Shown here piece after piece: positions 3,830-43,756 of a DNA stretch of 64,000 nucleotides. Source of the stretch: Natranaeroarchaeum aerophilus. GTDB lineage: Archaea; Halobacteriota; Halobacteria; Halobacteriales; Natronoarchaeaceae. The notes beneath the pieces are model-generated. The model was not told the origin of the DNA and made no database searches. It worked only from the letters and a program-made list of their open reading frames with translations. The stretch is taken from positions 751,815 through 815,814 of the forward strand of contig NZ_JAKRVY010000001.1 of NCBI RefSeq assembly GCF_023638055.1, in the 5' to 3' direction. A program made the position numbers and the translations under genes. Numbering within the stretch: position 1 is the stretch's first letter; every line of letters starts with the position of its first letter.

Positions 3830-6778
3830 ATGAACATGGAAACACCGAAAGAGCTCGGCGGCATCGAGTTCGGGCTTATGGACCCGGAGACGTACCGCGA
3901 TATGTCCGTCACGAAAGTGATCACGGCGGACACCTACGACGACGACGGCTTCCCCATCGACATGGGGCTGATGGATCCGCGTCTCGGCGTGATCGATCCC
4001 GGACTGGAGTGTCCGAGCTGTGGCCAGCACTCGGGCTCGTGTCCCGGGCACTTCGGCCACATCGAACTCGCCGCACCCGTTATCCACGTCGGCTTCACGA
4101 AGCTCATCCGGCGACTGCTCCGTGGCACCTGCCGCGAGTGCTCGAAGCTACTGCTGACCGAGGAGGAAAAAGAGGAGTTCCGCGACGAGCTGGAGACGAC
4201 CAAGGAGCTGAGCAACGACGTCAACGACGTCACCAAAGCCGGGATTCGACAGGCCCGAAAGAAAGACGTCTGTCCCCACTGTGGCGAACAGCAGTACGAT
4301 ATCAACCACGAGAAGCCGACGACCTACTACGAGGTCCAGCAGGTGCTCACCAGCGAGTACGCACAGTTGATCTCCGCCGCGATGCAGGGCGACGAGGAGG
4401 AAGGTCGGGAGCCGATGCCGCCACAGGCGCTCTCGACCGAGACCGGGATCGATCTCTCGCGGATCAACGAGATCATCGGCGGCGAGTTCCGCCCGCGCGA
4501 GGACGATCGAAAGGCCATCGAGAAAGCCCTCGACATCGATCTGACCGAGGAGGACATGAACAAGCTGATGCCCAGCGATATCCGGGACTGGTTCGAGGCC
4601 ATCCCGGACGAGGATATCGAGGTGCTGGGGATCAACTCCGAGCGCTCGCGCCCGGAATGGATGATCCTCACCGTCCTGCCCGTACCGCCGGTGACCGCGC
4701 GTCCCTCGATCACGCTGGACAACGGCCAGCGCAGCGAGGACGACCTGACCCACAAGCTGGTCGACATCATCCGCATCAACCAGCGATTCATGGAGAACCG
4801 TGAGGCCGGTGCCCCACAGCTGATCATCGAGGACCTCTGGGAACTGCTGCAGTACCACGTCACGACGTTTATGGACAACGAGATCAGCGGGACGCCACCG
4901 GCGCGACACCGCTCCGGCCGTCCGCTGAAGACGCTCTCCCAGCGCCTCAAGGGCAAGGAGGGTCGCTTCCGCGGCTCGCTTTCGGGGAAGCGCGTGAACT
5001 TCTCGGCCCGAACCGTCATCTCTCCGGACCCTACACTGAGTCTCAACGAGGTCGGGGTTCCAGAGCACGTCGCCAACGAGATGACACAGACGATGAACGT
5101 CACCGAGCGAAACGTCGGGCAAGCACGCCAGTACGTCTCCAACGGCCCCGAAGGCCATCCCGGTGCGAACTACGTCAAACGACCCGATGGCCGCCGACTC
5201 AAAGTAACCGAAAAGAACTGCGAGGAGCTCGCCGAAAAGGTCATGCCCGGCTGGGAAGTCAACCGGCACCTGATCGACGGCGACATCATCATCTTCAACC
5301 GGCAGCCGTCGCTTCACCGGATGTCGATTATGGCCCACGAGGTCGTCGTGATGCCGTACAAGACGTTCCGGCTCAACACGGTTGTCTGTCCGCCGTATAA
5401 CGCTGACTTCGACGGTGACGAGATGAATATGCACGCGCTGCAAAACGAGGAAGCACGGGCGGAGGCCCGCGTCCTCATGCGCGTGCAAGAGCAGATCCTC
5501 TCGCCGCGCTTCGGTGAGAACATCATCGGCGCGATTCAGGACCACATCTCCGGGACGTATCTGCTCACCAACGAGAACCCGCAGTTCAACGAGACGCAGG
5601 CACTTGACCTGCTGCGTGCAACCCACGTCGACGAACTGCCGGAGGAAGCGGGCACCGAGGACGGCGAGCCGTACTGGACCGGCCGTCAGCTGTTCTCGGA
5701 GCTGCTCCCCGACGACCTGAACCTCGAGTTCACGTCTTCGGCGGGGGACGATGTCGTGATCGAGAACGGCCAGCTACTCGAGGGGACGATCGACGAGGAC
5801 GGCGTCGGGGCCTTTGGCGGCGAGATCGTCGACACCGTCACCAAGGTCCATGGGACGACACGAGCCCGACAGCTGATCAACGAGATCGCCGCGCTCGCGA
5901 TGCGCTCGATCATGCACTTTGGCTTCTCGATCGCCATCGACGACGAGACGGTCTCGCTGGAGGCCCGCGAGCGGATCAGCGAGACGATCGACGACGCCTA
6001 CGACCGCGTCGAAGAACTGATCGCGACCTACGAGGCGGGCGAACTCGAATCCCTGCCCGGCCGAACGGTCCACGAGACGCTCGAAATGAAGATCATGCAG
6101 ACGCTGGGCAAGGCGCGTGACAACGCCGGGGACATCGCCGAGGAGCACTTCGACGACGACAACCCGGCGGTCGTCATGGCCGAATCCGGCGCACGTGGGT
6201 CGATGCTGAACCTGACCCAGATGGCTGGCTGTGTCGGCCAGCAGGCAGTCCGTGGCGAGCGGATCAACCGCGGCTACGAGGACCGCACCCTCAGCCACTA
6301 CAAGCCGAACGACCTCTCCGCGGACGCACACGGCTTCGTCGAGCACTCCTACACTGAGGGGCTGAACCCGCGGGAGTTCTTCTTCCACGCGATGGGTGGT
6401 CGCGAGGGGCTGGTCGACACCGCAGTCCGAACCTCGAAGTCCGGCTACCTCCAGCGCCGACTGATCAACGCCCTCTCCGAGCTCGAAACGCAGTATGACG
6501 GCACGGTCCGGGACACCTCCGACACGGTCGTCCAGTTCGAGTTCGGCGAGGACGGCACCAGCCCGGTGCAGGTCTCCTCACACGAGGATCACGAGATCGA
6601 CGTCGAATCCATCGCGGATCGGATCGTCGAGGCCGAGTTCGCCGACGACGACGAGAAACAACAGTTCATGGGTCGCGAAGAGCTACCGACGAACCTTTCC
6701 GAACACGCCGACGCCCGGCGAGTCCAGTCGCCGCCACCGGAGCCGGAACCGGCGGCCACGGAGGTGGACGATGACTGA
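3830..6778 (+). CDS. rpoA1: DNA-directed RNA polymerase subunit A'
   Basis: This 982-residue protein is the N-terminal two thirds of the largest subunit (bacterial beta', Rpb1). Two zinc sites are visible: [17 protein letters not shown] near 58-74, and a second one built from CREC near 100 and CPHCGEQ near 147. The catalytic magnesium loop [10 protein letters not shown] is present near 525, preceded by [16 protein letters not shown] at the given position follows the rpoB' stop by one base; a second ATG two codons later is equally possible. The 3' end overlaps rpoA'' by eight bases. Nothing about the subunit looks unusual. Confidence 0.97.
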
Positions 6779-40397: not shown

Positions 40398-40817
40398 TTA
40401 CTCCTCGTCGGGAGCCGCCGTTGTCTCTTCGCCCCCTGCATTCAGCATCTCTTCAGTCATCTTCCGCGCTTCGGCGAGAACGTCCCCCGTCTCGTCGGTG
40501 AGGTCCCCACGACCGCGGCCAGCGGTCTGGCGAGCCATCTCCTGCTCGAACGTGGCTCCCGACTGTCCACCGTGGCCGTGGTCGTGGCCGTGCCCATCGG
40601 TCGTGTCCTCGAACAGCTGCGGAAACTCCGTCTCGGGGACGTGCTCGACGACCGCTTCGGCAAGTTCAGTCTGGGTCGAGTTCTCCCAGTCGGGAGCATG
40701 TTCGTTCAGCCATTCTTCGTGTCCCTCACGGCCCATGATCGCGGTGATCGCGAGGTGGTTGGCGAGGTGTTCCCCATCGGCCTGCGGGGTCTCGCACACC
40801 GGACAGACGTATCCCAT
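40398..40817 (-). CDS. DUF5810 family protein with zinc-finger-like N-terminus
   Basis: This 139-residue protein starts MGYVCPVCETPQADGEHLAN, a CxxC pair followed by two His residues that could form a C2H2-like zinc site. DAPDWENSTQ-type acidic helices and a His/Gly-rich stretch (DGHGHDHGHGG, near residues 90-100) follow. It matches the DUF5810 family of halophiles with unknown function. The ATG before GYVCPVC is the natural start; a longer frame would run into the histidine kinase gene. Confidence 0.75.
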   Translation of the reverse strand: MGYVCPVCETPQADGEHLANHLAITAIMGREGHEEWLNEHAPDWENSTQTELAEAVVEHVPETEFPQLFEDTTDGHGHDHGHGGQSGATFEQEMARQTAGRGRGDLTDETGDVLAEARKMTEEMLNAGGEETTAAPDEE

Positions 40818-40848
40818 GCGCGTGGGTTGGCGGGTCAGGTGGAAAAGA

Positions 40849-43161
40849 CTAGCGCGTCTCCCCGGCGTCGACCCTGTGGAGTGTGATCGTGATTTCCGTC
40901 CCGGGATCTGTCTGCCTGACATCGATCGAACCGCCCGATAGCGAGATGATCCAGTAGACGTGCCACAGGCCGAGGCCCAGTCCGTGGGTGAGCGGCCCGA
41001 CGCGTTGCTCACCGGTGAGAATACTCGCTTCCTCGTGGGGCAGCCCCGGCCCGTAGTCCCGGACGTGGATCGCGACCGTAGTTTCGCCGACCTCGATACC
41101 GATACTGACACGTGGCTGCTCTCGCTCACTATGTTCGACGGCGTTCGAGAGCAGTTCATCGATGGCGTCCTCGAAAGTCGGGATCGCATCGACCAGTACG
41201 TCAGTCGACCCGTCGATTGATAGTTCGGCGTCGCCGTCGAATGCTCTGACCGTGATGGCGATCGACCGTGCGATTTCCCAGAGTGGAATCGACTCCGGTC
41301 GCGGATGCTCGCTCAGAAGCTTGACTATCTTCCGGTGTTTGTTGGTCAGACCGATTAATCGGTCTGCCTCCCGGACGATGGTTCGTTCGGCCTCCCGCTC
41401 ACCAGTATCGACAGTAGTGAGCTGTTCGGCATAGCCCACGATGACGTTCATCCCATTCGTAATGTTGTGTCTGAGGACGCGGTCGAGCACCCGGAGCTGC
41501 TGGCTCGCCTCGACCCGGTCGGTCACGTTCTGCTGAAAGCCCACGTAATTTCGCACGGTCCCGTCCTCGTCTTTGACGGGGGCAATCGTGACACGGTTCC
41601 AGAACATGCTCCCGTCGCTGCGATAGTTCCGAAGTTCCACATCCACGGGGCGTTCCTCGTCGATGGCTTCGCGCAGCTCCGCCACAGGGCGCGGCTGGGT
41701 CTGCTCGCCCTGCAATATTCGGCAGTTCCGGCCGAGCACCTCCTCGCTGGTGTAGCCAGTCAACTGCTCGAACTGCTCGTTGACGTAGATCATCGGGTTG
41801 TCCTCCAGATCGGGGTCAGTAATCGTCACTCCGACCGGAGCTTCGTCGATTGCCCGGTTTTTGAGTTCGAGTTCCCGCTCGCGCTCACGCTGGTCAGTGA
41901 TATCACGACATCGCCATAACCGACCGTAGCGTGTGCCGTCTTCCCCAACGACCGGAGTGGAGTAGACGTCCAGAATCCTCCCCGAGTCGAGCCGGATCTC
42001 GTCGTGGCTCGTCGCCGTCGGATCCGCCCTGAGCCGTTTGATCAGGTCGAAAAACGCCTCCGGGTCTTCAAGCACGTCCCGTGCATATTCGAGCGCCTCC
42101 GCCTCGTTTCCTCGCTCGAAGATTTCCTCCGGAACCGCCCATAGCTGTTTGAACCGCTCGTTGTACGAGAGGAACTCACCCTCCGTCCCGACAACGAGAA
42201 TCCCGTCCTGTACTGACTCCTGCTGGGCCTTGAGCAACGACCGTCTGAACTCCATCCGGGTTCGATTTCGGTCCCGTTGCTGCCGACGGAACGTCCGGTG
42301 GACGAGGTCCGCAATGTTACCGGCAAACCCGAGTTCGTCGTCGGTCCACTCGCGTTGCTCCCCGACCTGCTCGTGACAGACGACCCCGATGACGTCGCCA
42401 CCGTCCCGGAGCGCGGCGTCGAGCATCGACGTGATCCCGTTCGGTTCGAGATACGACTCGGTCAGTGCGGCCGTCCGTGGATCCGCTCTGGCGTCCGGGA
42501 TGGCAAACGTTCGGTTCGACTCGACGGCATCAAAATACGCGGGATACCGCTCGGCCATCAGTCTATCACCGGTACTGTGTTCGCCTGACTGCCGGTCGTA
42601 CCGATCGACACACCGCATCTCTTCGCCCGACTCGTCGAAGAGCCAGACGCTAACCCGAGTCGTCCCCAGGACATCGGCAGCCGTCTCGGTGATCGTTTCG
42701 ATCGCAACCGTGAACTCACCCTCGGTCACGCTCTTGTCGATCGATAGTTCGTACAGCGCATCTCGATGACGGTCTCGATGTCGCTGCTGGTCGTACTCGG
42801 TATCGACAGGTCGGAACAGAAGCATCGCCGCTGTATCCGCTTCGTCGATCGGAATGACACTGAGCGCCACCGTTTCCGATGAACCATCCTCAGACCTGAC
42901 AGTCAGCGGACCACAACTATCCAGTTCGCACCCGCTCGTCGGCGGCTCCGCTGACGACGGGCGTCTCCGGTCACCCGTAATCGGATCGGTGAACTGCAAC
43001 ACGTCGTCGAGTGGTCGGCCCAGAGACTGGTCCAGGTCGTCGACGAGCAATCGATCAGTGGCAGCGTTGCCGCCCACGATTGCCCATCGGTCGTCGACGA
43101 GAATCACCGGATCGGAGAGTTCCTCGATCGGAACCCGGGCAGAACAGGGTTGGTTACTCAT
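40849..43161 (-). CDS. multi-PAS/GAF/LOV sensor histidine kinase
   Basis: This 770-residue soluble kinase has a PAS-like domain (about 10-120), a GAF domain (about 140-295, with VIGVVCHEQVGEQREWTDDE), a second PAS (about 315-430) and a LOV-type PAS (about 435-550). The LOV domain carries GRNCRILQGEQTQP with Cys480 as candidate flavin-adduct residue, plus NYRSDGSMFWN and YVGFQQNVT. The phospho-acceptor His565 lies in RVLRHNITNGMN. ATPase boxes are DELLSNAVEHS, DYGPGLPHEE and HGLGLGLWHV. No membrane helix and no adjacent response regulator are seen. It probably senses blue light and perhaps redox in the cytoplasm. Confidence 0.9.
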   Translation of the reverse strand: MSNQPCSARVPIEELSDPVILVDDRWAIVGGNAATDRLLVDDLDQSLGRPLDDVLQFTDPITGDRRRPSSAEPPTSGCELDSCGPLTVRSEDGSSETVALSVIPIDEADTAAMLLFRPVDTEYDQQRHRDRHRDALYELSIDKSVTEGEFTVAIETITETAADVLGTTRVSVWLFDESGEEMRCVDRYDRQSGEHSTGDRLMAERYPAYFDAVESNRTFAIPDARADPRTAALTESYLEPNGITSMLDAALRDGGDVIGVVCHEQVGEQREWTDDELGFAGNIADLVHRTFRRQQRDRNRTRMEFRRSLLKAQQESVQDGILVVGTEGEFLSYNERFKQLWAVPEEIFERGNEAEALEYARDVLEDPEAFFDLIKRLRADPTATSHDEIRLDSGRILDVYSTPVVGEDGTRYGRLWRCRDITDQRERERELELKNRAIDEAPVGVTITDPDLEDNPMIYVNEQFEQLTGYTSEEVLGRNCRILQGEQTQPRPVAELREAIDEERPVDVELRNYRSDGSMFWNRVTIAPVKDEDGTVRNYVGFQQNVTDRVEASQQLRVLDRVLRHNITNGMNVIVGYAEQLTTVDTGEREAERTIVREADRLIGLTNKHRKIVKLLSEHPRPESIPLWEIARSIAITVRAFDGDAELSIDGSTDVLVDAIPTFEDAIDELLSNAVEHSEREQPRVSIGIEVGETTVAIHVRDYGPGLPHEEASILTGEQRVGPLTHGLGLGLWHVYWIISLSGGSIDVRQTDPGTEITITLHRVDAGETR

Positions 43162-43246
43162 CGTGCCACCTCCCGAGACCCATCACTGCTGTACATTTTC
43201 GAGCGACTTACTTAAGCGTGCTTGCCACTTCTCGATGAGTGGGTCG

Positions 43247-43756
43247 TCATTTCATGGCCTGTCGAATCATAATAATCGCGTCCTCGCCGTCATCGTAGTA
43301 CCGCGGGACGCGCCGCAGCGGCTGAAACCCGAACCTGCTATAGAGACGTTGTGCGCCGTCGTTTTCCTCTCGAACTTCGAGTTTTACCGAGCTGACGGAC
43401 TGTTCCTGCAGGGATTTCAGGCCGTGACGGAGCAGTGTCGTGCCGACGCCCTCGCCCCGGAACTCGGGATGGACTGCCAGGTCCTTGATATGGCCCAGCG
43501 GCTGACCGTGGTTCGGCACGAGATCCGCGACGACAAACCCGATGACGTTTGCCGTGTCGACTCCCCCACCGTTTTCCCCTCCTCCCTCCTCGACGGCGAC
43601 GAGAAAACCCGGGTCTGAGAGCTGGCGCTCGAACGCCTCGAACGGCCACGGACTCGCAAACGACGCCTTCTCGATGCGGTAGACGGCAAGGAGATCCGCC
43701 CGCTCGGCCTGCCGGATCCGGATGTCCGATGGTACGTCTCCCGATGTGACGGTCAC
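43247..43756 (-). CDS. rimI: ribosomal-protein-alanine N-acetyltransferase-like GNAT
   Basis: This 169-residue GNAT enzyme has the acetyl-CoA loop HPEFRGEGVGTTLLRHGL near residues 92-109 and VKLEVREENDGAQRLYSRFGF further on. The N-terminal IEKASFASPWPFEAFERQL is typical of RimI/Ard1-like N-terminal acetyltransferases, so it probably acetylates protein N-termini. The start is GTG (VTVTSGDVPSD), since longer frames overlap the next gene. A small Gly/Glu insertion occurs near residue 55. Confidence 0.85.
   Translation of the reverse strand: MTVTSGDVPSDIRIRQAERADLLAVYRIEKASFASPWPFEAFERQLSDPGFLVAVEEGGGENGGGVDTANVIGFVVADLVPNHGQPLGHIKDLAVHPEFRGEGVGTTLLRHGLKSLQEQSVSSVKLEVREENDGAQRLYSRFGFQPLRRVPRYYDDGEDAIIMIRQAMK

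Follow-up and report, generated by a model that had tools for sequence, protein, structure and literature searches.

The window analyzed here, a 64-kb stretch of haloarchaeal DNA (64,000 nucleotides; C1:751815-815814), encodes a 770-residue histidine kinase (40849–43161, minus strand, from the ORF with its ATG start, the translation, and Pfam), which raises the question of whether a soluble kinase of a haloarchaeon perceives blue light through a flavin-binding LOV domain. The sequence GGGAGGTGG (43166–43174, minus strand) lies 4 nt upstream of the ATG and is read as a Shine–Dalgarno element, on our assumption as to the haloarchaeal form of that element. The predicted protein has the order PAS?-GAF-PAS-LOV-DHp-HATPase, and all coordinates given for its parts refer to the minus strand. 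An initial annotation had placed a GAF domain and two further PAS domains beside the LOV domain. The GAF domain (residues 153–287; 42301–42705; PF01590, 60.7 bits) and the PAS domain that follows it (PAS_7, residues 315–428; 41878–42219; PF12860, 30.3 bits against a cut-off of 27, with model strands at 320–420) bear this out; the first PAS-like stretch (residues about 10–120; 42802–43134) scores 18.5 bits with PF00989, under the cut-off of 22.6, and is modeled with a pLDDT below 50. Since the N-terminal 128 residues have no tblastn match at 1e-3 among the loci compared, the PAS identity of this stretch stays weak. That comparison was made without three loci that are copies of the window gene (L002, L021, and L023) and retains the window's own genome (L133), which reads 100%; residues 9–350 are matched as a whole by L050. 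The protein has no transmembrane-like segment (the highest Kyte–Doolittle 19-mer reaches 1.43) and contains 149 Asp plus Glu vs 9 Lys and 76 Arg, such that the kinase looks soluble, as first proposed, and haloarchaeal in composition.

The LOV domain (PAS_9, residues 442–548; 41518–41838) scores 100.9 bits with PF13426 against a cut-off of 27 and carries the motif GRNCRILQG, in which the predicted adduct cysteine, Cys480 (codon 41722–41724), is invariant in the Cys-bearing alignment, together with NYRSDGSMFWN and YVGFQQ. The LOV motif pattern has a single match in the genome, with none for its reversed control, and the top phmmer ranks are held by YF1 (4gcz, 1e-36) and YtvA, followed by many other LOV domains. 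The LOV match of the window protein is far beyond chance, and the signature set centered on Cys480, from which the initial annotation argued, is confirmed by the motifs, the PAS_9 score, and the YF1 match. These features bear on one alternative, namely that the domain is a degenerate PAS fold that binds no flavin and that the kinase answers only to ligands of its GAF and PAS domains. Such a reading draws on the replacement of the motif Phe by Ile, found at this position in four of 26 LOV domains in the relatives set (window included) and in one of 79 in a set of named loci, and on a Val at what we presume to be the position of F494 in AsLOV2. However, the flavin-contacting Asn, Gln, and Arg positions are filled by alignment and count (N479, R481, Q484, R497, N512, N522, and Q543), and the counterparts of R467, N482, N492, and Q513, which we take to be the contacts in AsLOV2, are all present. 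The fold argues likewise: an AlphaFold2 model of residues 425–770, built on an alignment of 19 sequences (pLDDT 87.3, pTM 0.69), reproduces the LOV domain, and several LOV crystal structures fit it at 0.6–0.8 Å, among them dark-state Brucella LOV-HK (3t50; rmsd 0.6 Å over 108 columns, Foldseek) and Chloroflexus LOV (6rhf; Z 21.1 and 0.7 Å over 106 residues, VIA-align). At the level of the fold, the model agrees with the annotation, and YF1 (4gcz) is the best full match of the kinase model in Foldseek. As conservation is also strongest in the LOV domain (see below), we give next to no credence to a degenerate, flavin-free domain.

Sequence- and fold-level tests without exception support the prediction of a flavin-binding, Cys-adduct LOV domain in a soluble histidine kinase with multiple inputs. 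The protein scores 139.2 with NCBIfam BluLightHisKinLov (NF052306, cut-off 450) and 159.9 with YtvA_fam (NF052652, cut-off 250); both values are below the curated cut-offs and place it outside both equivalogs. Pfam detects neither a BAT nor an HTH_10 output domain in the window kinase, both of which are present in the L151 protein, the Bat homolog described below.

Matches to the window kinase at 1e-60 occur in 28 of 117 genomes, its own included. These amount to 31 matches, one of them without a locus, and the LOV alignment comprises 29 of 30 loci, L050 having been dropped because its match is N-terminal only; alignment A1 retains 19 of these 29 rows, without the Cys-less rows, the non-LOV row, and several near-duplicates. 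Among long matches, the closest come from G003 and G006, both genomes of the window's own family, and are GAF-PAS-LOV-HK proteins that lack the N-terminal stretch; the relative in G030 is a GAF-LOV-HK protein. The adduct Cys is kept in 24 of the 28 aligned relatives outside the window (25 of 29 with it). Natural Cys-less LOV kinases are found as well, with Ser (L032), Ala (L034), or Trp (L038) at the adduct position, and L048 has an ordinary PAS domain in place of LOV; the scaffold can thus do without the adduct. In all six relatives compared by segment, LOV is the most conserved of five segments (57–72%), with 35–57% for the linker plus DHp and 35–47% for the CA domain; for L026, the PAS segment contributes only six aligned residues.

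This pattern also informs a second alternative, in which the LOV domain is mainly a flavin redox or oxygen sensor and light is secondary, as proposed for Cys-less Bat-LOV*. According to the available text of Yee 2015 (PMC4682037), Bat-LOV* responds to flavin reduction, and the Ser, Ala, and Trp members belong to the same family as the window kinase; nevertheless, the window kinase keeps Cys480, as most relatives keep their Cys, and its LOV domain is the best conserved part of the protein. A primary role in redox or oxygen sensing is, in our judgment, very unlikely.

The kinase core had been described as complete, and this description holds. Residues H565, N673, G729, and G731 of the H, N, and G boxes are all present and are invariant in a second alignment (A2). 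His565 (codon 41467–41469), the predicted phosphoacceptor, lies in VLRHNITNG within an H-box that is invariant in the alignment, and the HATPase_c catalytic domain (residues 664–762; 40876–41172) scores 49.7 bits with PF02518. The signaling helix and DHp hairpin (residues 547–618; 41308–41523) are modeled by AlphaFold2 as helices forming a two-helix hairpin, though HisKA, at 20.5 bits, remains under the Pfam cut-off of 26.9. Counting the window kinase, 25 of the 26 LOV proteins in the relatives set have Cys and His 85 residues apart and the remaining one 84, a nearly fixed spacing as expected for a coiled-coil signaling linker. Among the named loci (79 LOV domains in 80 loci, the best 80 of 593 matches in a scan with a Cys-requiring pattern, and thus uninformative on Cys conservation or abundance), a His-box lies within 70–110 residues in 28, at 85 in 19 and at 91–93 in nine; the other 51 have no His-box by pattern, owing to another domain coming next, another type of H-box, or a miss of the pattern (e.g., L058).

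A finer measure is the DIT-to-His spacing, which is 18 in the window kinase. Over 44 distinct haloarchaeal H-boxes, an uneven sample in which relatives of the window gene are overrepresented and from which 13 loci judged bacterial by title and H-boxes without a downstream G-box were left out, this spacing is 18 in 32, 25 in eight, 26 in one, and 28 in one, and the motif is absent at two; on inspection by eye, the case of 28 (L178) has a DRT motif at a spacing of 18. A spacing of 18 goes with His-Asn boxes (32/32) and 25 with His-Asp boxes (8/8), which together account for 40 of 42 measurable kinases. The two values differ by one heptad, in line with what signal transmission along a coiled coil would predict. 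In YF1, the spacing is presumably 34, counted on the sequence as we take it to be, which is 16 more than in the window kinase. Assignment of a light-on or light-off sign from the linker register was rejected because the DHp types differ from that of YF1 and the gap of 16 is not a multiple of seven. Heptad dependence as such is already known in LOV kinases, according to the available text of PMC6798134; a limited literature search returned no earlier report of a two-register DIT-to-His spacing in haloarchaeal kinases, from which absence from print does not follow.

We hold it to be very probable that the window protein is a cytoplasmic, dimeric, blue-light-regulated histidine kinase, the LOV domain of which acts through the Cys480 adduct on His565 and a distant receiver. 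FMN would sit in the LOV domain, where blue light would lead to a Cys480–C4a adduct and reorientation of Gln543. The change would pass via the helix leaving the LOV β-sheet (residues 547–583) into the DHp hairpin of a putative dimer and alter autophosphorylation of His565; a receiver from another part of the genome, for which the four stand-alone REC-HalX proteins are the most plausible candidates, would be phosphorylated accordingly. The upstream GAF and PAS domains may modulate the same 547–583 helix and so contribute the signal integration that we infer for this kinase.

As the initial annotation had stated, no response regulator is adjacent: a profile search of the 64-kb window finds no receiver (REC) gene. 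The genome as a whole has 16 receiver matches, 13 of them above cut-off, and 37 HATPase_c matches, some of which are not histidine kinases. Four receivers are the REC-HalX proteins, and none of their genes is adjoined by a kinase ORF in the 5-kb stretches inspected, with neighbors judged by size and first residues. The suggested search for a partner has in this way produced four candidates without an adjacent kinase, none of them tied to the window kinase, and identification of a partner by adjacency was rejected. The function of HalX was undocumented as of Galperin 2018 (PMC5847659), in the text available. The rhodopsin that had been presumed is present as a single match on another contig (C9), beside a Bat homolog and a Brp/Blh gene; the Bat homolog, the LOV motif of which reads GRNPRLLQG (Cys-to-Pro), is divergent from the rhodopsin and Brp/Blh genes (L151:2250–4238, minus strand, and 4433–6418, plus strand). 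A second LOV histidine kinase, PAS-LOV-PAS-HK with the motif GQNCRFLQG (L150:2542–4290, plus strand), is encoded on C1. One could imagine from this inventory a light and redox network in which a shared flavin cue is read with differing sensitivity by the two Cys-LOV kinases and by a Cys-less Bat-LOV*, the two kinases converge on few REC-HalX proteins through two-register, heptad-locked linkers, and genes for LOV kinases come and go between species, a scheme that we put forward as speculative and unlikely to hold as a whole.

At the locus itself, the interval between a RimI-like gene and DUF5810 (window 40817–43250; L152, L155–L159) varies across seven family genomes, being occupied by different kinases or by no kinase. 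RimI and DUF5810 occur together in these seven (window included), with a kinase between them in three: the window, G002, and G006. No match to the window kinase lies between RimI and DUF5810 in G001, G004, G007, and G008, and G003 and G005 have no RimI match near DUF5810. The congener, G001, keeps the flanking aconitase, RimI-like, DUF5810, and NUDIX genes, with the RimI and DUF5810 alignments ending about 110 bp apart and no kinase in the gap. Nor does G001, the one further genome examined from this genus, contain a match to the window kinase at 1e-60; its function must accordingly be dispensable. The final codons of the window kinase and its stop (GACGCGCTAG) lie in sequence that is also present in this congener, which lacks the gene. 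The G002 and G006 locus kinases are 75% identical to one another; their orthology with the window kinase was rejected, as their kinase modules are 34–36% identical to it vs 43–48% for L024–L026 and they have no LOV motif. DUF5810 (40398–40817, minus strand), a protein with a CPVC start that looks like a zinc finger, lies 31 bp downstream of the kinase on the same strand; an operon of the two is unsupported because DUF5810 is found in nine of nine family genomes searched and occurs in the congener, where the LOV kinase is missing.

Among known systems, the engineered YtvA-LOV/FixL kinase YF1 is the best match in both sequence and structure and, like the window kinase, has a helix that joins LOV directly to DHp-CA, but it has no GAF or PAS domain ahead of LOV and differs in linker register and in the type of its DHp domain. 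The LOV fold of Brucella abortus LOV-HK (3t50, 6ph4) fits the window LOV model at 0.6 Å; this blue-light kinase is of the HWE type and, unlike the window kinase, has a PAS domain between LOV and kinase (LOV-PAS-HK). Bat, a homolog of which is encoded in the same genome, shares a LOV-like domain but has Pro for Cys, an N-terminal REC domain, and an HTH_10 output instead of a kinase. The closest counterparts are haloarchaeal. In the available text of Losi 2014 (PMC4844311), 167 archaeal LOV proteins are counted, kinases included, with about 30% of the halobacterial ones having HTH outputs and the rest being kinases with RR, GAF, and PAS units; that of Valle 2025 (PMC12202551) lists 28 LOV domains from Lake Diamante, one of them measured, and describes for a haloarchaeal LOV domain from a PAS-LOV-kinase a photocycle at up to 3 M salt. 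Archaeal LOV proteins are thus numerous, and in the literature examined, as far as its available text goes, measurements exist for one Cys-bearing domain and an output is known for none; a soluble kinase with LOV joined directly to DHp, encoded alongside no more than four REC-HalX genes, offers a practical case for finding a role of blue light in an archaeon. As described in these sources, haloarchaeal LOV kinases such as ALovD-1 likewise have a GxNCRxLQG LOV domain, RR-, GAF-, and PAS-rich architectures, and a C-terminal histidine kinase in the same archaeal class, whereas the window kinase has the order PAS?-GAF-PAS-LOV-HK and Ile in the motif where ALovD-1 has Tyr and carries LOV as the second of three PAS domains. 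The window kinase belongs to this family, already described in haloarchaea, as a genuine though ordinary member and adds small new details: absence of the gene at the congener locus, an unrelated PAS kinase there in two family genomes, and the 18/25 DIT-to-His spacing.
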